A stretch of 24,880 nt of DNA from a virus. The stretch is from positions 1 through 24,880 of the IMG/VR virus record IMGVR_UViG_3300019886_000023; one strand, given 5' to 3'. A model generated the notes under the pieces. That model had not been told where the DNA came from. It made no database searches and was given only the letters and a program-made list of their open reading frames with translations. A program made the translations under genes and the position numbers. Below are positions 745-23,672 of this stretch, in pieces (the first letter of the stretch is position 1; each line of letters opens with the position of its first letter).

Positions 745-926
745 CCGGCATTGCATGGCGCTGCCAGTTCTGCGGGGAGTGGGTGGCGCAGCCGTGGCTG
801 CCGCACCTGTCCGCGGGCGATGTGAGGAAGAACTTTGCACTGCAGGTCGACGCACACGTCGACTTCCACGTGGACCTCCTGGTGGAGGAGATAAGGGAGG
901 AGACCAGTGGCGAAGTCCCCGGCTGA
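741..926 (+). CDS. Small CxxC protein between terminase and portal
   Basis: This unassigned protein of 61 residues begins with GTG at 741, which overlaps the terminase stop as GTGA; a second GTG at 720 would add seven residues. I prefer 741 because of the four-base overlap typical of translational coupling. The N-terminus has a Cys pair in the context WRCQFCGEW, the shape of half a zinc knuckle, followed by His residues in the middle (HVDFHVD) and an acidic C-terminus. The last 20 bases overlap the portal start. CxxC microproteins are common next to actinophage terminase and portal genes, but I know of no established function. The frame is supported by tight packing and a coherent peptide, not by homology. 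Confidence 0.62.
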   Translation: MTGIAWRCQFCGEWVAQPWLPHLSAGDVRKNFALQVDAHVDFHVDLLVEEIREETSGEVPG

Positions 927-4303: not shown

Positions 4304-7300
4304 ATGGGCGGCTGGGGCTGGAATCCGCTCAGCGACATCGAGAAGGCCGCCGGGGACGCTTCGTCGTTCGTCGGCAGAGACGTGGTCGCGAAGATCCCCG
4401 GCGGCACCGCCGTGGCGAACGCGCTCAACGTCCCGTACACGTACCTGATCTCCCGGCCGATCACCACGTTCGAGAACGTCGTCAACGAGAACACGTTCCA
4501 GGCGATCAAGCACAACGACGTGTCGGCGGGCGGCGGCGGGCCGATGGGCCTGTTCTCCGCGCACAACTGGCGCGAGGCGTGGGACAACTCCGAACACGAG
4601 TCCCCCGGGCAGGGCCTGGTCATCGGATTCAACAACACGATCAACCACAAGGGTGCGATCGACCCGTACAACCAGGCTGCCCGCGACAGCTTCTTCCAAA
4701 ACAACTCCGTGGCCGGGGTGGCGTCCGGGACGCTCGACGCGGGCGCCAGGGTCATGGACCCGGCGAGCCTTGTCGGCAAGGCCGCCTCCGCCAAGGTCGG
4801 CGACGCGCTCAAGGGCAAAGTCACACCCAAGTCCAGTATCGACGATGTCATCGCGCACCCGAAGACCCAGGCCTTCATCCAGAAGGTCCCGGACATGTCG
4901 TTCAGCCAGCTGGCGAACTCGGCGATCCTGAAGGCGTCCCCGCAGCGCTTCCGGGCCGCGGCACTGCTGTCGAACGCGAAGAACGCGGCGCAGGCCGAGT
5001 CCCTGATGCGCATCGGGTTCGGCGACATGGACGAGTATGAGAAGGTCGGCGCGGACGCGCACGCCCTCGCCCAGGCGAAGCAGGGCCTGTCGGACGCCTC
5101 ACAGGGCACCCCGGCGATCGACGGCATCCCGGACGAGCTGGCGTCCATGCGCATCGCGCAGGTCGTCGACAACATGGACCTGGACCTGAAGTCGAACCTG
5201 ATCGACCTGGATACTGAGGGCCTGTCGAAGTTCAGCGTCGACTCGGGTAAGGTCGTCACGAACATGGCTCAGCGCTCGCTGCAGGCGAACGTGGACACGC
5301 TGCGTTCCGCGCAGGAGCTTTTCCAGCAGATGAAGGGCCGCTCCCGGCAGGGCGGCCTGTCCGGCGGGCAGTTGGGCGATTGGCGCGCGGCGAAGAGTAT
5401 CGCCAACTCGAACGCCACCACGCTGGGGTCGGTGTACGACCCGGGCACGGTGATGTCGGTGATCAAGAACCATGTGACGGACCCGATGATCCGCGTGTAC
5501 CACACGCTGAACGACCGCGCCTACCAGTCGCTGAACGACCCGCGGCCGACGAAGTACGTCGACTTCACCCGGGACGACTCGGTGAACAACGTGCGGGCGC
5601 TGCTGAACACGTATCCGTCGCTGCTGCCCGCCGACCGCGAGGCTATGGCCGCGAAGTATGCCGGGGCGGATCAGGCCGGGCGGCAGCGGGTGTTCAACGA
5701 CATCGAGAAGAAGGCGATCACGCAGACCGCAGCGGCCCACGGGGTGTCGGCGGATCATGCGCTGGCCATCTACCGGGAGTCTGCGACCCGCCGCGGGGCC
5801 TACCTGCAGAACGTGAAGAACCGCGCCTACGGCTCCCTGCAGGACGCCGACGGTGGTGACCTGGGGTCCGCGCACGTCCCGGGGGACTCGGGGCATGTGG
5901 TCACGGACGCGTACCTGGACACGCAGATCGCCCGCGGGGCGATGCCGTTTCTGGACGGCCGGGACCTGGATCTGGCCCTGTCCCGCATGGACGAGGCCGG
6001 GATCACGGCGAAGCTGCACCATTTCGGCGAGGCCGGGGGGCGCATCGCCAACGAGATGTTGGACAAGGTTTACGGGGTGTGGAAGCCTCTTGTGCTGCTG
6101 ACGGGGCACCGCGCCTACAACCATGTGGGCGATGATGCGCTGCGTTCGCTGTCGAAGCTGGGAGCGCTGGCGACGGTCGGCAACGTGGTGGAGGGTGCGG
6201 GCAACTTCCTGCGGAACCGGGTCAGCCGGTTCACTCCGTCGCACTGGGTGCGCAACGTCCAGGCCGCGCACGACACGCAGGTCGGTGATTTGAAGGCGGC
6301 GTTCCACGCCACGGTGGCCAGGCACAACGCTCAGAACCAGGCTTTGGCGGCCGGGGTGCATGTGGATCCGGCGAACCGGGTCGGCCCGGCCGAGGTGGGT
6401 TCCGCGCTGAAGGCGTACAGGGACACGCGTGACGCCGGTCCTCAGTTCGTGCAGCCGAAGAACCGGTTGGGGCAGGGTACTATCCGTGTGCCGGGTACGT
6501 CCATGTCGGTTCCGGATTTGTTCGGCGGTGCGGATGCGGAGTATCTGCGCAAGGTGCTGTCGTCGGATTCGACGTTCAACGATCTGTTCGATGATCATTC
6601 GAAGAACGACTTCAACTCGCTGATGGCCGCTACCGACCACGACATGATTACTGCGCGTGACGGCGCGAAGGTGCATGCGAACGCGATCATCCGGTACGTG
6701 AACAACCAGTTGCGCAACGACGCGGTGGCGAAGAGGCTGCTGAACGGCGAGAACGAGCACGCGGTACGCGGCTGGATGCTGAAGACCCCGGAGGGGCAGG
6801 CCCGCATGCGGGCGCTGCACCTGGGGGAGCCGATGGACAACATCGAGATGATCCACGACATGATCACGAAGTTCCTTCCGTCGAACACGCTGAAGCGCGC
6901 CGCAATGGACGGCAAGTTCTCGGCGAAGCACATCGAACAGCAGTGGCCGTCACCGTCTTCCCGCCCGGAGGTCTCCGGGAACCTGGCGCTGCTGGCGCAC
7001 GGCGGTTCACCGGCGACGGGGTACCTGAAGCACGTCACGGGCAAGATCATGAAACTGACCGGTACGATGCCGGACGACATCCTGGTCAGGCATCCGTTGG
7101 CGAACACCCTGTACAAGGGCAACTTCATCGACAACATCAAGCAGATCCAGGCGCAGCGCGGCGAACACGCCCTGCTGTCGCAGGCGGACCTGGACCTGGC
7201 CCGGAAGTCTTCACTGGGGCAGGCCCGGGAGACGATGAGGAACCTGATCTACGACACGTCGCGGTTCACGTCGGCGGGTTCGACCCTGCGGTTCGTCAGC

Positions 7301-8794
7301 CCGTTCTTCAACGCCTGGCACAACGCCATCACGTCGTGGACGCACCTGATCGCGGAGAACCCGCAGCTGGTCGCCCGCGGAGTGCAGGCGAAGCGGGCGC
7401 TGTGGAACTCGCCGATGGCCGTGGACGCGTCGACGGGGCAGCGCGCGAACAGCGGGACGTCTCTGGACAACCTGGCGTTCGTCATGCATCTTCCGTCGGG
7501 TTTGGCGAAGAGCCTGGGCATGGGGTCGGACAACTATATTCCGATCGCGGCCTCGACGCTGATCTCCCCGACGTACGCGGACTCGATCGGCAACCCCGGG
7601 TTCGGTCCGCTGGTGACGGTTCCCGTCAACCAGCTGGTGAAGAACCATCCCGGATTGTTGGACAACCATCTGGCGCAGATGGTGACCGGCGGCAGGGTGT
7701 CGCAGAACAGTTTCGCGTCCGTGATCCCCTCCGGGGTGACCGACTTGCAGAACCTCGGCGGCATCCTGGGGATCTCCGGCAACCCCGACGACGTCAACAG
7801 CCGGGCGTCTCTGCAGTGGACCCTGTACCAGGAGCAGTACTACGATTTCCTGAACGGCAAACGGCAGGCTCCGCCGAAGTGGGCCGACGTCAGCAAGCAG
7901 GCGTCGTGGCTGACGGTCGTCGGGTCGCTGGCGAACCGGGTGCTGCCGTTGGGGTACAAGCCGCGGGGGGACCATCAGTTCCTGGTGGACCAGTACAAGC
8001 AGATGCTGGATGCCGATCCGAAAAACGCGCAGCAGAACTTCTACGACAAGTACGGTTCTGCGGGGTTCATGTTCACGCAGTCGCTGTCTCAGAACAAGAC
8101 GGTGAACGGCGACCCGGGGATTCCGGCTACGGTCGGCGCGACGGAGGCGTACAAGCGCTATTCGGCGGTCATCAAGGAGAACCCGGAGTTGGCGGCGGTC
8201 GTGGTGGGGCCGGAGGGTGACGGCAGTTTCAACGACGCGGCGTACCAGTGGGAGAAGGCGAACGGCCTGCGTTCGTCTCTTTCTCCGCAGGACGCGGCGA
8301 AGATGGAGCAGCAGAACTTGGGCTGGACCCAGTACGCGAAGATCATGTCGAACCTGAACTACCAGGTGCAGGCGCGCGGGCTGACCAGCATCAACCAGTC
8401 CGGGGCGAAGGACCTGGCGGGTGTCAAGAAGGCGTTCGTGGACGCCACCGGCGACCAGACGTCCCAGTACTACAATCCGGCGTTCTATGCGGCCTACAGC
8501 GGCTACAACCAGGGCGACTACGACGTGCGCATCCAGGGCATCCAGAAGATCGCCCAGGATCCGGCGCTGCTGTCGAACCCGGCACGCAGCGATATCCGGT
8601 CGTTGAACGCCTATTTCCAGTTGAGGGACCAGGCCCGGTCGTATATGGCGCCGGGTTCGACGGTCGGCGCGACGAAGAACCAGGGCGCCAAGGACTGGTT
8701 CGACTACCAGGTGGCGCAGCTCATCCAGTCTGACACGAAGTTCGGGCCGCTCTACGAACGGTATCTGGCCAAAGACGATCTCAAGCAGCCGTAG
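4304..8794 (+). CDS. Giant internal virion / DNA-ejection-type protein (1496 aa)
   Basis: At 1496 residues this is the largest product in the window. It starts with MGGWGWNPLSDIEKAAGD, which lacks a signal peptide. The protein is mainly helical, with no long coiled-coil repeat or periodic tape-measure pattern. Recognisable blocks include WKPLVLLTGHRAYNHVGDDA (about residues 595-615) and RFVSPFFNAWHNAITSWTHL (about residues 995-1015). They resemble segments I associate with large actinophage minor-capsid or internal virion proteins. I see no confident catalytic motif. Position between portal and wall-hydrolase genes, great length and absence of other tail-length genes point to an internal protein ejected with DNA, analogous in role to T7 gp16. 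A MuF-like minor capsid protein is the main alternative. Coding is certain; the function is inferred. Confidence 0.75.
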   Translation: MGGWGWNPLSDIEKAAGDASSFVGRDVVAKIPGGTAVANALNVPYTYLISRPITTFENVVNENTFQAIKHNDVSAGGGGPMGLFSAHNWREAWDNSEHESPGQGLVIGFNNTINHKGAIDPYNQAARDSFFQNNSVAGVASGTLDAGARVMDPASLVGKAASAKVGDALKGKVTPKSSIDDVIAHPKTQAFIQKVPDMSFSQLANSAILKASPQRFRAAALLSNAKNAAQAESLMRIGFGDMDEYEKVGADAHALAQAKQGLSDASQGTPAIDGIPDELASMRIAQVVDNMDLDLKSNLIDLDTEGLSKFSVDSGKVVTNMAQRSLQANVDTLRSAQELFQQMKGRSRQGGLSGGQLGDWRAAKSIANSNATTLGSVYDPGTVMSVIKNHVTDPMIRVYHTLNDRAYQSLNDPRPTKYVDFTRDDSVNNVRALLNTYPSLLPADREAMAAKYAGADQAGRQRVFNDIEKKAITQTAAAHGVSADHALAIYRESATRRGAYLQNVKNRAYGSLQDADGGDLGSAHVPGDSGHVVTDAYLDTQIARGAMPFLDGRDLDLALSRMDEAGITAKLHHFGEAGGRIANEMLDKVYGVWKPLVLLTGHRAYNHVGDDALRSLSKLGALATVGNVVEGAGNFLRNRVSRFTPSHWVRNVQAAHDTQVGDLKAAFHATVARHNAQNQALAAGVHVDPANRVGPAEVGSALKAYRDTRDAGPQFVQPKNRLGQGTIRVPGTSMSVPDLFGGADAEYLRKVLSSDSTFNDLFDDHSKNDFNSLMAATDHDMITARDGAKVHANAIIRYVNNQLRNDAVAKRLLNGENEHAVRGWMLKTPEGQARMRALHLGEPMDNIEMIHDMITKFLPSNTLKRAAMDGKFSAKHIEQQWPSPSSRPEVSGNLALLAHGGSPATGYLKHVTGKIMKLTGTMPDDILVRHPLANTLYKGNFIDNIKQIQAQRGEHALLSQADLDLARKSSLGQARETMRNLIYDTSRFTSAGSTLRFVSPFFNAWHNAITSWTHLIAENPQLVARGVQAKRALWNSPMAVDASTGQRANSGTSLDNLAFVMHLPSGLAKSLGMGSDNYIPIAASTLISPTYADSIGNPGFGPLVTVPVNQLVKNHPGLLDNHLAQMVTGGRVSQNSFASVIPSGVTDLQNLGGILGISGNPDDVNSRASLQWTLYQEQYYDFLNGKRQAPPKWADVSKQASWLTVVGSLANRVLPLGYKPRGDHQFLVDQYKQMLDADPKNAQQNFYDKYGSAGFMFTQSLSQNKTVNGDPGIPATVGATEAYKRYSAVIKENPELAAVVVGPEGDGSFNDAAYQWEKANGLRSSLSPQDAAKMEQQNLGWTQYAKIMSNLNYQVQARGLTSINQSGAKDLAGVKKAFVDATGDQTSQYYNPAFYAAYSGYNQGDYDVRIQGIQKIAQDPALLSNPARSDIRSLNAYFQLRDQARSYMAPGSTVGATKNQGAKDWFDYQVAQLIQSDTKFGPLYERYLAKDDLKQP

Positions 8795-8802
8795 GGGGCG
8801 AC

Positions 8803-9810
8803 ATGGCCAATCCGGGCGATTCCGCCATCAGCAATGCTTTGAACGGCGGCTCTGCGGGTACGGCGCCGCCAGTGCCCGGCTATGACGGTTCCGTGGCCCC
8901 GGGCGCGGCCCCGTCGACGGGCTTGACGGTCGCGGTCGGCTCCTACAACCTGTCGCTGAACAGCGGGGTGAAACCCACCGACCAGGTGATGATCGGCGGC
9001 GGCCACCAGACGGCCACGGTCGCGGGCAGGCAGCTGCTGGACAACGGCGGCGGCGTACAGACGAAGGCGTCGGTTGCGACCGCGAACACGGCCACCGTGG
9101 CATCCCAGTTGCAGGCGTTCAACTCGTGGTCGACGAACGACTACCAGAAGTTCCGCGACCAGGCTTACGCGATGGGCCTGACCGCGTCGAAGTCGGCGGG
9201 CAAGGCCGAGGTGCTGGTTGCATGGCAGACGGTAGTCGAGGAGGCCGCGAAGGAAAACAAGGCCATCCCGGACATCGTCAAGGTGGCGTCCGCCGGCGGC
9301 TGGTCCGCGTTGAAGCCGCAGATCGTCCCGGCGGACAACGGCCTGGGCGGTACGGGCAACGCCAACAACTCGCCTGACGCGAGCAACTCGACGTCTCAGA
9401 CGAACTACGTCTCGTACATGGATCCGGCTACCGCGCAGGGCACTTTGGCGGACTCGTTCCAGAAGCTCCTGGGCCGGGCGCCTACCGGCGCCGAGTATCA
9501 GGCGTTCCTGAACTCCCTGTACTCGTACCAGGATGACGAGAACACGGGCAAGTTCGAGGCGAAGTCGTCTACTTCGGCGAACCCCGGCCAGGCCACGGAC
9601 GCTTCCGGGGGCTCGGGGGCTTCGTCGAATACGACGACGAACACGGTTTCGCAGCGGCAGGTGGGTGCGCGCGGTGCGGGGTTCTTGGCGGATCAGGCGG
9701 CTATCGCGAACCCGGCCGAGGGCGCCTACCAGGCTGCTACTACTTATTTCAACGCCTTTCAGAAGGCCCTGTCGGGGCCTGCTGCGGGCATGGCGCCCTC
9801 GGGGCCGTAA
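8803..9810 (+). CDS. Putative internal virion protein (335 aa)
   Basis: The start ATG follows AGGGGG by about five bases. The first 100 residues are Gly/Ala/Ser/Thr-rich and probably flexible. Two compact helical segments follow: one around residues 105-150 (NDYQKFRDQAYAMGLTA, then AEVLVAWQTVVEEAAKE) and one around 210-240 (LADSFQKLLGRAPTGAEYQA). The latter has the look of a short helical repeat found in large actinophage virion proteins. The C-terminus is again low in complexity. No enzyme motif is visible. It sits between the giant internal protein and two murein hydrolases, so I infer a component of the same ejection complex. No family name can be given from sequence alone. Confidence 0.68.
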   Translation: MANPGDSAISNALNGGSAGTAPPVPGYDGSVAPGAAPSTGLTVAVGSYNLSLNSGVKPTDQVMIGGGHQTATVAGRQLLDNGGGVQTKASVATANTATVASQLQAFNSWSTNDYQKFRDQAYAMGLTASKSAGKAEVLVAWQTVVEEAAKENKAIPDIVKVASAGGWSALKPQIVPADNGLGGTGNANNSPDASNSTSQTNYVSYMDPATAQGTLADSFQKLLGRAPTGAEYQAFLNSLYSYQDDENTGKFEAKSSTSANPGQATDASGGSGASSNTTTNTVSQRQVGARGAGFLADQAAIANPAEGAYQAATTYFNAFQKALSGPAAGMAPSGP

Positions 9811-9825
9811 CGGAATGGACAGCTG

Positions 9826-11421
9826 ATGGCTGGGATCTCCGGGCAGGACCTGGTCAACTACGCCCTGGGCTTCCTGGGCACCCCGTACGTGTGGGGCGGG
9901 ACCCGCCCCGGCGGGTTCGACTGTTCCGGGCTCATGCAGTACGTGTACGGGCATTTCGGGCTGAGCATCCCCCGCGTCACGTTCGACCAGGTGAAGGCCG
10001 GGCGTACGGTGGCGAACGTGCAGTCGGCGCAGCCCGGGGACCTGGTCTTCTTCGACTCGGACCACAACGGCACGCCCGCGCACGTGGGCATGTACATGGG
10101 CAACAACCAGATCGTGGTTGCGGACCATACGGGCACCCCGGTCCGTATCCGGTCGCTGTCGCAGGAGGACAAGGTCCTCTCGATTCAGCGCATGAACGGC
10201 GTGGTTGCGACGAACAGCAACTACGGGCCGCAGTCCAACTATGCGCAGCTGCTCGGTCTGACGGGTTTGAACGGGCACTCCGGTGCGGCAGCGCTGCCCG
10301 CGGCGAGGCCTACGTTCGACTGGTGGTCGGGTATGGGCGTCCAGTCGGCCAACACGTCCGAAGCAGACCAGAACGTGGGTTTGATCAAGGCGTTCATCCA
10401 GAACGACCCCGAGCTGGGGAACCTCTACTCGGAGGCTGTCGGCGGCAACTGGTCCCAGGACCAGTTCATTAACGCCTTGCACGCTACGGACTGGTGGAAG
10501 ACGAACTCGGCTACGGTCCGCCAGAACCTGTCTACGAAGGCCACCGACCCGGCGACCTGGAACCAGCAGACGCAGGCGGAGACGTCGAAGGTGCAGGAGT
10601 TGGCGACGAAGCTCGGGGTGCCGCTGTCGGCGAACGCCCTGCAGAATGTCACCAACACGGCGCTGCTGTTCGGATACAACGACTCCCAGCTGCAGAACAT
10701 GCTGGGCGGGTACCTGAAGGACGTCAAGCAGGGCTGGTTCGGCGGCTACGCCGGGCAGGTCCAGCTGGCGATCAAGGAGTACGCGGCCGATCAGGGGATC
10801 CCGGTCAGCGACCAGTACGTGAACAGCAACGTGCAGTCGATCGTCGCGGGGTCGAACTCGCTGAACGCGATCCGGGCGAGTATCGCCACGCAGGCCGCTG
10901 CGGCGTTCCCGGCGTACTCGGACCAGATCAACAAGGGCACCACGGTGGGCGCCATCGCGAAGCCGTACGCGTCTGCCCTGTCGCAGATCCTGGAGCAGAA
11001 CCCGGACAGCGTCGACTTGTACAACCCCCTGTTGCGGGGGGCGATGCAGTACAAGGATCCTAAGACGGGCCTGCCCGGGGTGAAGCAGCTGTACGACTAC
11101 GAGCGGGAGCTGCGGCAGAACCCGAAATGGCTTGGCACGAACAATGCCCGCGAGGGCCTGATGGCCGGCGCCCAGCAGGTACTCGGGGATATGGGCGTGT
11201 TGACGGCGGATGTGGGCGCGGCTCCGCAGACCTCGCCGGATTCGCTCACGAACCTGTCGGCGTCGATCGCCGGCCAGTCCACGGGGCTGTCGGGGATGAC
11301 GGGGTTCTCGACTCTGCAGGGCAAGGAGGCGCTGTCGAATCCGGCGCCTCCGGTAACTACCGCTGCGGCATTGTCGCCTGATTCCAGTTTCACTTCTTTG
11401 GGCACCAAGCAGACGGGATAG
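9826..11421 (+). CDS. NlpC/P60 peptidase with virion C-terminal module
   Basis: This 531-residue virion-type peptidoglycan hydrolase has an N-terminal NlpC/P60 cysteine peptidase domain at residues 1-120. The domain reads GTPYVWGGTRPGGFDCSGLM, with nucleophile Cys33, then QPGDLVFF, then AHVGMYMG with catalytic His86; His101 in ADHTG is the likely third residue. This family cleaves D-Glu/meso-diaminopimelate-type bonds in stem peptides. Residues from about 185 to 460 form a separate helical module that recurs in the next protein: DPATWNQQ, FPAYSDQIN and a LGDMG end. There is no signal peptide, and the position is inside the structural operon, so it likely opens the wall during DNA entry and not at lysis. 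The start is ATG 9826, with only a weak RBS. Confidence 0.87.
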   Translation: MAGISGQDLVNYALGFLGTPYVWGGTRPGGFDCSGLMQYVYGHFGLSIPRVTFDQVKAGRTVANVQSAQPGDLVFFDSDHNGTPAHVGMYMGNNQIVVADHTGTPVRIRSLSQEDKVLSIQRMNGVVATNSNYGPQSNYAQLLGLTGLNGHSGAAALPAARPTFDWWSGMGVQSANTSEADQNVGLIKAFIQNDPELGNLYSEAVGGNWSQDQFINALHATDWWKTNSATVRQNLSTKATDPATWNQQTQAETSKVQELATKLGVPLSANALQNVTNTALLFGYNDSQLQNMLGGYLKDVKQGWFGGYAGQVQLAIKEYAADQGIPVSDQYVNSNVQSIVAGSNSLNAIRASIATQAAAAFPAYSDQINKGTTVGAIAKPYASALSQILEQNPDSVDLYNPLLRGAMQYKDPKTGLPGVKQLYDYERELRQNPKWLGTNNAREGLMAGAQQVLGDMGVLTADVGAAPQTSPDSLTNLSASIAGQSTGLSGMTGFSTLQGKEALSNPAPPVTTAAALSPDSSFTSLGTKQTG

Positions 11422-11424
11422 CGG

Positions 11425-12708
11425 ATGGCTAGTTTGGCGGATTCGCAATTCCAGGCTTTCTTGAATGCGGAGAAGGCGCAGGAGTCCGGGGGCAATTACG
11501 GGGCGAGGTCTCCTGCCGGGGCGTTGGGCGCCTACCAGGTGATGCCCGCGAATATCGCCGGGTGGTCGAAGCAGATCCTGGGCTATTCGATTTCGCAGCA
11601 GGAGTTCATCCAGAATCACGCTTTGCAGGACACGATTGTTGCCGGGATCTTGTTGCAGTATGTGAACAAGTACGGTTACCAGGGCGCGGCGGCGATGTGG
11701 TTCTCGGGGCAACCGAACCCGAACTCGTCTGCGTCCGACGGCGGCACCACGGTGTCGAAGTATGTGCAGTCCGTCATGTCCCGCATGGGCAGCGGCGGCG
11801 GCTCGGGCAGCAGTCAGATCGGCGCGGTCGGCACGTCTACGCCGATACTGTCCCTGGATTCGCTGCGGTCTTCGTCCCCGCTGGTGGCCGCGCTGGTGAC
11901 TTCGGTTCCGGAGTTGAACGGGATTTTCCAGCAGGCGGTGTCGGGGCAGTGGAGTACCGACAAGTTCATCTCTGCCGTGCAGAACTCGCATTGGTGGGCG
12001 ACCCACTCGACGTCGGCTAGGAACGCGTTGGCGACGATGAAGTCGGATCCGGCGACCTGGAACCAGCAGGTGACCCAGTTGCAGGCGACGTTGACGAACC
12101 TTGCGGCGCAGCTGGGTGCGATTCCGACGGCGCAGCAGGTGAACGCGCTCGCGGTGGACGCGTTGACGAACGGGTACGACGGCAATCAGGCGGTTTTGCG
12201 GCAGAAGTTCGCGCAGTATGTGAACCCGGTGTCCGGACTGCATTTCGGCGGCGAGGCGGGTTCGGATGAGACACAGCTGCGGCAGCAGATGATGCAGTTG
12301 GGCGTGTTCCTCCCGGAGAACCAGCTGGATGCGAACATCAAGAAGATGATCGCGGGGCAGACGGACGCGAACGCGGTGGAGGGGCAGTTGCGCACGCAGG
12401 CGGCGGCCACTTATCCGGCGTATGCGAAGCAGATCAACTCGGGGATGAATGTGTCGGATATCGCCGACCCGTACATTCAGCAGGCTTCGCAGCTGCTGGA
12501 GAAGGGCCCGGGCGAGGTGAACATCATGAATCCGATGATCAAGCAGGCTTTGCAGAATACGGTTAACGGTAAACCGGCGCCGTTGTCTCTGACGGATTTC
12601 GAGGTCCGGATGCGGCAGCAGCCGGATTGGCTGCATACGAGCAACGCGCAGGATTCGGTTATGTCTACCGCGCACAAGGTTCTTCAGGATATGGGCTTCG
12701 CCTACTGA
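11425..12708 (+). CDS. Lytic transglycosylase (SLT-like) with shared virion module
   Basis: This 427-residue protein begins three bases after the previous stop, with GACGGGA six bases upstream of ATG 11425. Residues 10-90 look like a soluble-lytic-transglycosylase fold: AEKAQESGGNYG with candidate catalytic Glu20, then GALGAYQVMP (residues 32-41), and later AAAMWFSGQPNP. Such enzymes cut the MurNAc-GlcNAc glycan backbone with anhydro-product formation. After a Gly/Ser linker near residue 120, the rest matches the C-terminal module of the preceding peptidase (SDPATWNQQ, YPAYAKQIN, DWLHTSNA, VLQDMG). It has no export signal. With the peptidase it would cover both the glycan and the peptide bonds of the host wall during ejection. 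Confidence 0.84.
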   Translation: MASLADSQFQAFLNAEKAQESGGNYGARSPAGALGAYQVMPANIAGWSKQILGYSISQQEFIQNHALQDTIVAGILLQYVNKYGYQGAAAMWFSGQPNPNSSASDGGTTVSKYVQSVMSRMGSGGGSGSSQIGAVGTSTPILSLDSLRSSSPLVAALVTSVPELNGIFQQAVSGQWSTDKFISAVQNSHWWATHSTSARNALATMKSDPATWNQQVTQLQATLTNLAAQLGAIPTAQQVNALAVDALTNGYDGNQAVLRQKFAQYVNPVSGLHFGGEAGSDETQLRQQMMQLGVFLPENQLDANIKKMIAGQTDANAVEGQLRTQAAATYPAYAKQINSGMNVSDIADPYIQQASQLLEKGPGEVNIMNPMIKQALQNTVNGKPAPLSLTDFEVRMRQQPDWLHTSNAQDSVMSTAHKVLQDMGFAY

Positions 12709-12721
12709 GTAAGGGTTCTAT

Positions 12722-13810
12722 ATGGCCAGTTACAAGGTGCGCAAGGGGGACACCCTTAGCGCTATCGCCCGGGCGCACGGAATGTCTCTGGCCCAGCTGG
12801 AGAAGCTGAACCCGCAGTTCGCTAAGAACTGGAACGCGATCATGCCCGGGCAGAACGTCACCCTGGTGCAGGCCGCCGCGGCCCCCGTGAAGGCGCCGGT
12901 GAAGGCGCCGGTGAAGGCGGCGCCGAAACCGCCCGCCCCGGCGCTCACCCCGTACCAGACGCTCCTGAACAAGCTGCAGGGCGTGAACGGCACGGAGAGG
13001 GACGCGTACGCCGCCCTCTCGACCCTGTTCACCTCGTACGGGCTGACCACGTTGGCGCCGAAGATCCTCGACTTCCTGCAGCAGGGGTTCGGTGCCGACA
13101 CGATTACGACGCTGCTGCAGCAGACCCCCGAGTATCAGGCGAGGTTTTCGGGGAACGCGGAGCGTATCAAGCAGGGTTTGCAGGTGTTGACTCCGGCCGA
13201 GTACCTGTCGACGGAGGCCAGCTACAAGCAGGCCCTGCGTGTCGCGGGGCTGGATCCGTCGCTCCAGTCGCAGAAGCAGTATGCGGACTGGATTGCGAAC
13301 GATGTGTCTCCGACGGAGTTGCAGGACCGGGTAAATCTGGCGACGCAGGCGGTGACTACGGCCCCGCCGGAGTTGACATCGGCGTTTTCGCAGATGGGTA
13401 TTGCGCACGGTGATCTTACGGGGTTCTTCTTGAACAAGAATACTCCGCTGCCGCAGTTGCAGCAGAAGATGAACCAGGCGCAGATCATTCAGGCGGGGAT
13501 GCAGACGGGTCTCCACGTGGATACGGCGAGCGCGGAGCATTACGCGCAGGAGGGCACCACGTACACGCAGGCGCAGTCGGCGTATCAGAAGATCGCGGAT
13601 CTGCTGCCGGAGGCGAACAAGCTGTCCTCGATCTACGGCAACCAGCCTAAGTACGGGCAGGCGGAGGCCGAGCAGGAAACGATGGGTTCGTCGGGTGCGG
13701 CGCAGTTGGCCAGGGAGAACCTGGGGCAGCAGGAGCAGGCGGCGTTCTCCGGTCAGGGCGGCGTGGGACAGAAGTCGTTCTTGCAGCAGACTTCAGGCAC
13801 GGGATTCTAG
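12722..13810 (+). CDS. LysM-domain virion protein
   Basis: This 362-residue protein has one LysM domain at residues 4-48 (YKVRKGDTLSAIARAHGMS, then LNPQF and MPGQNVTLVQ), the classic peptidoglycan-binding fold. A tandem Ala/Pro/Val/Lys linker (KAPVKAPVKAAPK) follows around residues 56-74. A helical middle region (YGLTTLAPKILDFLQQG, then LLQQTPEYQARF, then DVSPTEL) resembles a segment I associate with large actinophage virion proteins. The C-terminus is Gln/Gly/Ser-rich. AAGGG lies six bases before ATG 12722. It closes the five-gene block and is followed by a strong hairpin. It probably tethers the ejection complex to peptidoglycan. The LysM call is firm and the structural role is inferred. 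Confidence 0.84.
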   Translation: MASYKVRKGDTLSAIARAHGMSLAQLEKLNPQFAKNWNAIMPGQNVTLVQAAAAPVKAPVKAPVKAAPKPPAPALTPYQTLLNKLQGVNGTERDAYAALSTLFTSYGLTTLAPKILDFLQQGFGADTITTLLQQTPEYQARFSGNAERIKQGLQVLTPAEYLSTEASYKQALRVAGLDPSLQSQKQYADWIANDVSPTELQDRVNLATQAVTTAPPELTSAFSQMGIAHGDLTGFFLNKNTPLPQLQQKMNQAQIIQAGMQTGLHVDTASAEHYAQEGTTYTQAQSAYQKIADLLPEANKLSSIYGNQPKYGQAEAEQETMGSSGAAQLARENLGQQEQAAFSGQGGVGQKSFLQQTSGTGF

Positions 13811-13850: not shown

Positions 13851-13927
13851 AGCGGGATGGCGCAGTTCGGTAGCGTGCTGGGCTCATAACCCAGAGGCCG
13901 CAGGTTCAAATCCTGCTCCCGCCACCA
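13851..13927 (+). tRNA. tRNA-Met (anticodon CAT), initiator-like, CCA encoded
   Basis: The 77-base cloverleaf has acceptor strands at 13851-13857 and 13917-13923, discriminator A and an encoded CCA (13925-13927). The anticodon CAT is at 13885-13887 in loop CTCATAA. The T arm is GCAGG-TTCAAAT-CCTGC. Three consecutive G:C pairs flank the anticodon loop (GGG with CCC) and position 1-72 is an unpaired A-C; both are initiator hallmarks. The D-stem pair 11-24 is C:G, as in elongators, instead of the A:U of initiators. Overall it reads very like actinobacterial tRNA-fMet. I call it initiator-like; formylation and use in initiation are unproven. Confidence 0.93.
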
Positions 13928-18798: not shown

Positions 18799-19698
18799 AT
18801 GCCCACACTCCAGGATATCGCGTCCCGGACGAAGATGAACCTGTTCGGGTACTCCTCGAAGCAGCAGCAGTGGTCCTACCTGACCCAGTCGGTCACCGCC
18901 ACGGACCTGACGTTCACGGTGAACGACGCGTCGCAGATCTCCCGGGGCCTGATCGAGATCGGCGGGTCCGAGCTGATGCTGGTGAAGTCTGTGAACCGGC
19001 AGACGAACACGGTATCCCTGGAACCGGGCGGCCGGGGGCAGTTCGGGTCTACTGCGGCGGTGTGGGCGGCGAACGTCCTGATCGAGAACAACCCGATCTT
19101 CCCGTTCGTGCGCATCCGCGAGTCCGTGAACGACGCACTGAACGCCCTGTACCCGGACCTGTTCGCGGTGGGCACCTCGAAGTTCCCGAAAATCTCCGTG
19201 GTGTTCAACTATCCGCTTCCGGCGGACTGCGAAGAAGTCATCAACATCAAGTACCAGCTGATCGGCCCGTCCAACATCTACCCGTGGTGCCGTTCCTACA
19301 GGTACGACAACACGGCGGACACGACCACGTTCCCCACAGGGAAGTCGGTCAATGTCCTCGAGGACATCACTCCCGGCAGGGAGATCCAGGTGACGTACAT
19401 GAAGGAACCTTCGCTCCTGTCGCTGCCGGGGGACGATTTCGCTACGGTCACGGGCCTGCCGGGGTCTGTGGCGGACCTGGTGTTCTATGCGTGTATGACG
19501 AAGATGCTCCCGGCGCTCACCGGTCCGCGTCTGATCCTGGATTCGGTCGAGGCGTCCGAGCGGGCTTCTGCGGTGCAGCCGCAGCAGATCGCGCAAGTCT
19601 CCCAGTACTACAACACGCTTTATCAGGAGCGGTTGCAGAAGGAAGCCCGGAAGCTCGCCGACCGGTACAAGCGGCCCCTATTCTATACGGAGAGCTAG
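18799..19698 (+). CDS. Head-tail adaptor (short-tail connector)
   Basis: This 299-residue protein has AGGAGAA about six bases before ATG 18799. An N-terminal helix and FGYSSKQQQW are followed by a beta domain (LTFTVNDASQISRGLIEIGG, then GRGQFGSTAA). A helical region follows (RIRESVNDALNALYPDLF, about 110-127), which resembles the core helices of portal-binding adaptors. The C-terminus is a helix pair (ILDSVEASERASAV, then YNTLYQERLQKEARKLADRY). This architecture and size resemble tubular protein A of T7-like tails, although direct sequence similarity is not claimed. It likely docks beneath the portal and holds the nozzle encoded at 21144-23162. Confidence 0.72.
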   Translation: MPTLQDIASRTKMNLFGYSSKQQQWSYLTQSVTATDLTFTVNDASQISRGLIEIGGSELMLVKSVNRQTNTVSLEPGGRGQFGSTAAVWAANVLIENNPIFPFVRIRESVNDALNALYPDLFAVGTSKFPKISVVFNYPLPADCEEVINIKYQLIGPSNIYPWCRSYRYDNTADTTTFPTGKSVNVLEDITPGREIQVTYMKEPSLLSLPGDDFATVTGLPGSVADLVFYACMTKMLPALTGPRLILDSVEASERASAVQPQQIAQVSQYYNTLYQERLQKEARKLADRYKRPLFYTES

Positions 19699-23162: not shown

Positions 23163-23518
23163 TGACCGGACAGCTGAGCTACATGGTCAACATCCTGCTC
23201 GCAGCAGGATGGTTCGGCACGTTCTTCACCGCCAGGAACAAGGCCAAGAAAGCCGGAGTCGACCAGCTCGAGGCAGAGGCCTCGAGGGCGGCACTGGACC
23301 TGATACGGGTCCAGAAGGAGAAACTGCACCTGCTCTCCAGCCAGAACGAGCAGCAGCAGAAACTCATCGACGAACTCACCGAACGCGTCTCCTACCTCGA
23401 AGGGCTGGTGCTGCGTGGCTCCAAGCTGGTGGAACCGGGATCTCTACCAGACGTGCGAAGGTCCGGACGTGCTCGCCCTCCAGGCCATCCTAAGAATAGC
23501 CCAGACGGGAGTTTTTGA
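23162..23518 (+). CDS. Membrane-anchored coiled-coil protein
   Basis: This 118-residue frame starts at ATG 23162, which overlaps the preceding stop (TGATG). One hydrophobic segment (SYMVNILLAAGWFGTFFTA, residues 6-24) is followed by Lys/Arg, then a long coiled coil at residues 34-84 (LDLIRVQKEKLHLLSSQNEQ, then LIDELTERVSYLEGLVL). From residue 85 the frame overlaps the peptidoglycan-binding gene and turns Arg/Pro/Gly-rich, as an out-of-frame shadow would. One membrane span plus a coil suits a spanin-like, holin-associated or membrane-tethering role at lysis. The first 84 residues are convincing; the last 34 may not represent the functional protein. Confidence 0.65.
   Translation: MTGQLSYMVNILLAAGWFGTFFTARNKAKKAGVDQLEAEASRAALDLIRVQKEKLHLLSSQNEQQQKLIDELTERVSYLEGLVLRGSKLVEPGSLPDVRRSGRARPPGHPKNSPDGSF
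23191..23211 (+). promoter_or_regulatory. Perfect 9-bp inverted repeat inside membrane-protein gene
   Basis: CATCCTGCT (23191-23199) and AGCAGGATG (23203-23211) are exact complements separated by CGC. The repeat begins 29 bases after the ATG, inside the codons for the membrane segment. It could be an RNA hairpin affecting early elongation or a dimeric protein binding site; coding constraint alone rarely gives such symmetry. Confidence 0.4.
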
Positions 23519-23672
23519 TGCCGATACAGGACGATCCGTACGCGGCCAGCAACGGCTGCGCGGACTCCCTGCCACCGGAGGAGTCGACGAGCGGACCGCT
23601 GACGCGCTCGGAGAGTCCTACTGGTATCGGCCGCCGGGTGGCGGCAGCGATGCGAAGCTCCGAATTCAGTGA
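23415..23672 (+). CDS. Peptidoglycan-binding domain protein
   Basis: This 85-residue product starts at GTG 23415, with GAAGGG about ten bases upstream, inside the end of the coiled-coil gene. It opens with APSWWNRDLYQTCEGPDVLA and continues with LQAILRIAQTGVFDADT, then VRGQQRLRGLPATGGVDERT. This is the pattern of PG_binding_1 domains: a DV..LQ..L helix, TGVFD..T, a VR..Q helix and G.VD..T. The fold normally guides wall hydrolases to peptidoglycan. As a stand-alone gene it would need a partner, such as the GH25-like enzyme downstream. It could also be joined to the upstream membrane coil by a frameshift. The domain call is good; the gene boundaries are uncertain. Confidence 0.72.
   Translation: MAPSWWNRDLYQTCEGPDVLALQAILRIAQTGVFDADTGRSVRGQQRLRGLPATGGVDERTADALGESYWYRPPGGGSDAKLRIQ

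Follow-up and report, generated by a model that had tools for sequence, protein, structure and literature searches.

Gene organization of the locus

The DNA analyzed (the window) is the whole of a metagenomic virus record, IMGVR_UViG_3300019886_000023, of 24,880 bp, and represents a 24.9-kb fragment of the genome of a phage that has a short tail and infects soil actinobacteria. The terminase gene is represented by its end; after it lie genes for a portal, a 1496-aa protein, a 335-aa protein, two enzymes and a LysM protein, then a single tRNA, a gene at the scaffold position, and genes for the major capsid protein and for an adaptor like that of SU10. The Beephvirinae (cluster BF), podoviruses of Streptomyces, show an identical order of genes. 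The two enzymes, P0001 and P0002, are each composed of a catalytic head and a C-terminal module, here called M, and their reading frames lie at 9826-11421 and 11425-12708, as an earlier note made from the sequence had placed them. The features considered below are the following:

4304..8794, + strand, large 1496-aa virion-type protein (gene 9 position, PHROG 10618)
8803..9810, + strand, 335-aa protein upstream of P0001 (gene 10 position)
9826..11421, + strand, P0001, NlpC/P60 head plus module M, 531 aa, counterpart of Beephvirinae gene 11 'peptidase'
9877..10164, + strand, NlpC/P60 catalytic head, P0001 residues 18-113 (Pfam PF00877, E=2.1e-26)
10357..11199, + strand, module M copy 1, P0001 residues 178-458 (BLASTP, profile alignment)
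11200..11418, + strand, additional C-terminal stretch of P0001 (residues 459-531), present in the window's lineage and absent in cluster BF
11425..12708, + strand, P0002, SLT-like head plus module M, 427 aa, counterpart of Beephvirinae gene 12 'glycosylase'
11449..11790, + strand, SLT-like head 'type A' (lytic transglycosylase/lysozyme fold), P0002 residues 9-122, predicted catalytic Glu20
11851..12705, + strand, module M copy 2, P0002 residues 143-427, predicted all-helical
12722..13810, + strand, gene K (gene 13 family, PHROG 8424), directly 3' of M, with an N-terminal LysM
18799-19698, SU10-type adaptor

The tandem of NlpC-M and SLT-M, followed by K, lies in the window between the large protein of gene 9 and the genes for the capsid, in a block located between the portal and the scaffold/major capsid genes. 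The two-gene tandem is kept in 29 Streptomyces podovirus records and in nearly all of the IMG/VR loci described below, and a pattern scan of 84,980 species genomes detected no prophage. In the Beephvirinae, genes 11 and 12 are annotated as peptidase and glycosylase (HWB41_gp11 and HWB41_gp12 in Immanuel3, for example) or as 'minor tail protein', and the proteins of the window are 31-37% identical to their products. PHROG 6654, a family that carries no function, matches both P0001 and P0002. The NlpC-M/SLT-M pair is already known as Beephvirinae genes 11/12, and the resemblance between its members is implicit in this PHROG. Electron microscopy has shown BF phages to be podoviruses; in Destructrice the tail measures 16 nm and a tape measure could not be identified (PMC13097060, PMC9753666).

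The endolysin gene of Immanuel3 is located between terminase and portal, away from the block of genes 11 and 12, and that of Abafar is likewise between terminase and portal (PMC11536984). The corresponding interval of the window (745-906) contains no endolysin gene, and no endolysin could be identified for the window phage. An 85-aa ORF at 23415-23669 (+ strand), which overlaps the end of another ORF, encodes a PG_binding_1 domain (PF01471, E=1e-7) and is possibly the wall-binding part of a lysis gene. Downstream of K, a tRNA-Met occupies 13851-13927; the same site holds arrays of 15-22 tRNAs in cluster BF phages, 21 in locus L044 of that other lineage, and, in the relatives of the window, either one tRNA (Pro or Ala) or no tRNA. 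The five virion-type proteins encoded at 4304-13810 contain a single cysteine in total, the catalytic Cys of the NlpC head.

The C-terminal parts of P0001 and P0002 are homologous

The earlier note had proposed that both enzymes are built on the same C-terminal module, listing eight motifs common to them. All eight were recovered in the same order in both proteins: WSQDQFINA/WSTDKFISA, DWW/HWW, DPATWNQQ/DPATWNQQ, AAAAFPAYSDQIN/AAATYPAYAKQIN (matching AAAxxPAYxxQIN), SQILEQNP/SQLLEKGP, NPLLRGAMQ/NPMIKQALQ, RQNPKWLGTNNA/RQQPDWLHTSNA (matching RQxPxWLxTxNA) and VLGDMG/VLQDMG, given in each case for P0001/P0002. BLASTP aligned residues 187-457 of P0001 with 154-424 of P0002 (99/273 identical, 36%, E=1e-58), and the local alignment score of the modules, 501, lies 68 sd above that of shuffled sequences (mean 42.6, sd 6.8, maximum 73 among 500). 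A profile-profile alignment of the two modules, each represented by its family of relatives, which had been set as the test of the proposal, was significant over 282 columns (probability 100, E=1.8e-98). The modules of P0001 and P0002 are homologous. M comprises about 270 residues and reaches the C-terminus of P0002; P0001 bears a further, non-homologous tail of 73 residues.

The heads, which had been described as unrelated, gave a local score of 33 against 27.9 (sd 4.9) for shuffled sequences, that is, background. Together, these results strongly support a duplicated M carrying different catalytic heads. Other candidate copies of M were rejected by profile comparison, namely parts of the 335-aa and 1496-aa proteins, and gene K (profile probability 1); a short BLAST match between K and M (E=4e-4), in which residues 3-43 of the LysM were aligned to a portion of M, did not hold.

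The catalytic heads

In the NlpC head, the catalytic residues are Cys33 and His86, conserved among the heads of relatives in 51/51 and 52/52 cases, respectively, with Val98 at the usual third position of the triad. This position (head region 9826-10164) is occupied by Val or a similar residue in the window's lineage, where a conserved Asp follows two residues later; in cluster BF it is His in several members and Asp or Glu in others. The NlpC head matches phrog_329 and phrog_400, which are tail proteins.

The head of P0002 scored 18.2 bits against Pfam PF01464, below the cut-off of 21.3, which is passed by its homologue in Immanuel3, gp12 (24.2). Foldseek related this head to GH23/LT structures (GH23 chitinase, MltE, Slt) with a probability of 1.00 but an E of 0.12, and the predicted catalytic Glu20 is invariant in 30/30 relatives.

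Predicted structure of module M

An AlphaFold2 model of P0002, computed from a 77-row alignment, reached a pLDDT of 90.9 and a pTM of 0.60. It consists of a lysozyme-like head, a disordered linker (approximately 125-137) and an all-helical module from about residue 144; the pTM leaves the placement of the head against the module unsure. M itself, with pLDDT of about 90-97 over most of its length, is confidently modeled as all-helical. The earlier note had held that different predicted folds would speak against a common module; the P0002 model, whose alignment holds both paralogues, gave an all-helical M and no such difference, a partial check since P0002 was the protein modeled.

When the P0002 model was compared with the PDB, plausible matches were obtained for the head only, and M matched no solved fold; the only match to a T7 core protein (9jyy_I) was not significant (E=2.4, probability 0.15), and a profile search of solved structures with M returned nothing convincing. 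Among predicted viral structures, M matched the FlowerPower minor tail protein and uncharacterized phage proteins, one of them of 271 aa, the size of a headless module. No membrane-spanning segments were detected in P0001-P0005 (maximum Kyte-Doolittle mean over 19 residues, 1.12).

The head of the second gene is exchanged among relatives

Scanning IMG/VR with module M yielded 79 loci. The head of the first gene was NlpC in all 70 cases in which it could be identified. The second gene carried a head of type A (the SLT type of the window) in 41 cases, type B (canonical SLT, PF01464) in 20, type C (SLT_3, PF18896) in 6, a shortened B in 3, none in 5 and another head in 2; these counts include contigs that are nearly identical, as well as L085 and L086, which have a single module. 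The three shortened B heads are devoid of the ESG motif that holds the catalytic Glu and, judged from this, are apparently inactivated. On the second module of locus L020, positions 1153-1887 encode a head with the motifs AEGGNW and NPLNTT and no Pfam match, possibly another wall hydrolase.

On a tree built from the module only (62 distinct modules), the second head changed at least 11 times. Compared with L010, of its own clade, P0002 shows an identity of 17-27% for the head and 53-87% for the module, and the step falls at residue ~140; compared with L044, of the BF lineage, identity per block is 47-80% over head residues 31-120 and 17-50% for the majority of module blocks. Since identity jumps at the boundary between head and module, we conclude that heads have been exchanged; the comparison goes further than the earlier note, which had proposed swapped catalytic domains, in showing that the second head is exchanged between phages. 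Rapid divergence in place, with A, B and C being one lysozyme-like family that drifted beyond recognition, would also leave all three matching lysozyme-like Pfam models (SLT, SLT_3), as they do, and they could have a distant common ancestor. However, profile comparison aligned none of the three with another (probability 2-18), and a head nearer to L044 than the module is, with the reverse against L010, is a two-way mismatch predicted by exchange and not by divergence in place; uneven rates do not easily produce both patterns, so that this alternative is very improbable. Because the second enzyme is swapped, broken or missing in relatives while the module stays, the module, and not the enzyme, looks like the fixed part of the particle.

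Headless modules, gene K and the history of the two copies

Modules lacking an enzyme are present in L046, L079-L081, L085 and L093-L095, and the distant phages L085, L093, L094 and L095 possess a single M. M must therefore have a role of its own. The duplication with different catalytic heads that the earlier note had described is upheld by the E values reported above; its term 'tool holder' understates a module that exists without an enzyme. In L086/L088 and L089, a stand-alone NlpC gene lies just upstream of a headless M, and L090/L091 and ct2KA10 retain only the second half of M. These arrangements suggest that M was originally a structural gene with NlpC as its neighbor, duplication and fusion coming later, a direction that is not proven. 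The M family belongs to podoviruses of actinobacteria, with a single headless gene in distant relatives and duplicated, enzyme-fused copies in the window and BF lineages.

K is directly 3' of M in all distant single-M phages, and M and K co-occur in the same 30 named phage records. In the window, the LysM of K spans 12731-12859 (residues 4-46). It is also present in several relatives of the same lineage (confirmed with Pfam in L028; LysM-like start in L014, L022, L023, L025, L029 and L032); elsewhere the N-terminus of K is coiled-coil-like (cluster BF), Pro-rich or without extension. K, too, combines a variable head with a constant body and is the third gene of this kind.

In three trees, the two copies of the window's lineage grouped together, and the deep topology shifted from tree to tree; the first two trees also paired the two cluster BF copies with each other and not first with first and second with second. 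An AU test of one old duplication gave p=0.177 without the distant rows (not rejected) and p=0.035 with them (borderline). One duplication with early exchange between the copies, two duplications, and parallel adaptation to a common partner are all possible. Recent gene conversion between the copies was rejected because conserved residues share synonymous codons as often as codon usage predicts (observed/expected 1.06; 52 versus 50.9 in the window).

Relation to known systems

The exchange of enzyme heads on virion proteins is a known theme, as is the movement of hydrolase domains between ejection proteins, and the M pair is a variation on T7 gp16 and K1E gp35. Like P0002, T7 gp16 is a podovirus protein in which an SLT-type head at the N-terminus precedes a helical virion part; in contrast, no significant match in sequence or fold extends beyond the head, and M, which is present in two copies, lacks membrane segments. 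Membrane-spanning elements are a conserved property of gp14- and gp16-like ejection proteins, and the transglycosylase domain carried by T7 gp16 has its counterpart in K1E/K1-5 in a lysozyme activity on the gp15-like gp35 (PMC8954989). This relocation of a hydrolase domain between ejection proteins is the closest published precedent (PMC8954989), a likeness drawn from its description: there, one hydrolase activity has different carriers, whereas in the M system two hydrolases ride on paralogous carriers and one slot has been exchanged repeatedly. The virion-associated lysins of Gram-positive siphoviruses (tail-tip and tape-measure proteins) share the NlpC and SLT families with the M pair (phrog_329, phrog_400), but their carrier proteins are others, and the M pair occurs in a podovirus without a tape measure.

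The Beephvirinae genes 11/12 agree with the window in tandem order, kinds of head, homologous modules, downstream K, tRNA site and capsid genes; the window differs in a longer linker and the 73-aa tail on P0001, the LysM on K, and one tRNA versus 15-22. Neither the Beephvirinae annotations nor the papers in the open-licence PMC literature state the shared module and the head exchange, and in the same literature we found no description of a carrier that is duplicated, one slot being fixed and the other exchangeable, and that has natural headless and degenerate versions.

Probable role of module M in passage of the cell wall

We consider that M is probably a duplicated structural domain, of the ejection apparatus or short tail, that carries optional wall enzymes through the thick actinobacterial wall. 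This role is favored because of the position of the genes, the separate endolysin of relatives, the optional enzymes on a constant module, the constant K and the precedent of T7 and K1E. By analogy with these phages, M may work like a hydrolase-bearing ejection protein, which we hold with moderate confidence. We infer a location in the virion, ejection, co-assembly of the M copies on a common partner, catalysis and an order of action as follows. M, its constant downstream partner K (with LysM in this phage) and the gene-9 protein would most likely form an internal or short-tail ejection apparatus. After adsorption, the M proteins would exit via the short tail and extend a channel across the thick wall, where the NlpC head would cut stem peptides and the SLT head glycan strands, both locally, while the LysM of K would hold the complex on the wall. 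More tentatively, the two paralogous copies could form a mixed ring or channel by which any N-terminally fused wall-active domain is carried to the wall, an arrangement we regard as doubtful.

Against the favored role count the annotators' name 'minor tail protein', the Val at the third triad position of the NlpC head, the score of the P0002 head below the Pfam cut-off, the lack of membrane segments and of any significant sequence or structure match of M to known ejection proteins, and the absence of ejection proteins from phi29-like phages of Gram-positives (PMC8954989). Alternatively, M would be a fixed external component of the tail, a hub or the scaffold of a spike, and would not leave the particle; the enzymes, at the tail tip, would only thin the wall on contact. 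The name given to both proteins in Beephvirinae entries and the tail-protein families matched by the NlpC head fit this alternative, and many Gram-positive phages bear hydrolases at the tail tip. Nevertheless, the block has portal and capsid genes on either side and lies apart from the SU10-type adaptor and the downstream tail genes, and the tail-protein matches involve the head only; neither point is decisive, and we regard a fixed tail part as unlikely, while still a serious contender. That P0001 and P0002 are endolysins acting from within, their shared C-terminus being a cell-wall-binding domain and not a virion part, would agree with the modular build and C-terminal binding of endolysins and with the LysM in the adjoining gene, but is scarcely credible given the separate endolysin gene of relatives, the occurrence of M without an enzyme, its place in the structural operon and its lack of a match to Pfam wall-binding families.

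Known ejection machinery comes mostly from thin-walled, two-membrane hosts, and in open-licence PMC papers we found no description of how the DNA of short-tailed phages passes through thick actinobacterial walls. The constant module, with its fixed and exchangeable slots and its headless and apparently inactivated versions, constitutes a natural experiment, and relatives of the window phage have already been isolated and grown on laboratory strains of Streptomyces. The function-less PHROG 6654 can now be split into a structural module and a head. If the more tentative reading, with its mixed ring or channel, is true, M would be an ejection module for cargo that has not been described before in podoviruses of thick-walled actinobacteria, and the combination of a fixed NlpC slot with an exchangeable one would allow the phage to follow changes in the wall chemistry of its host.
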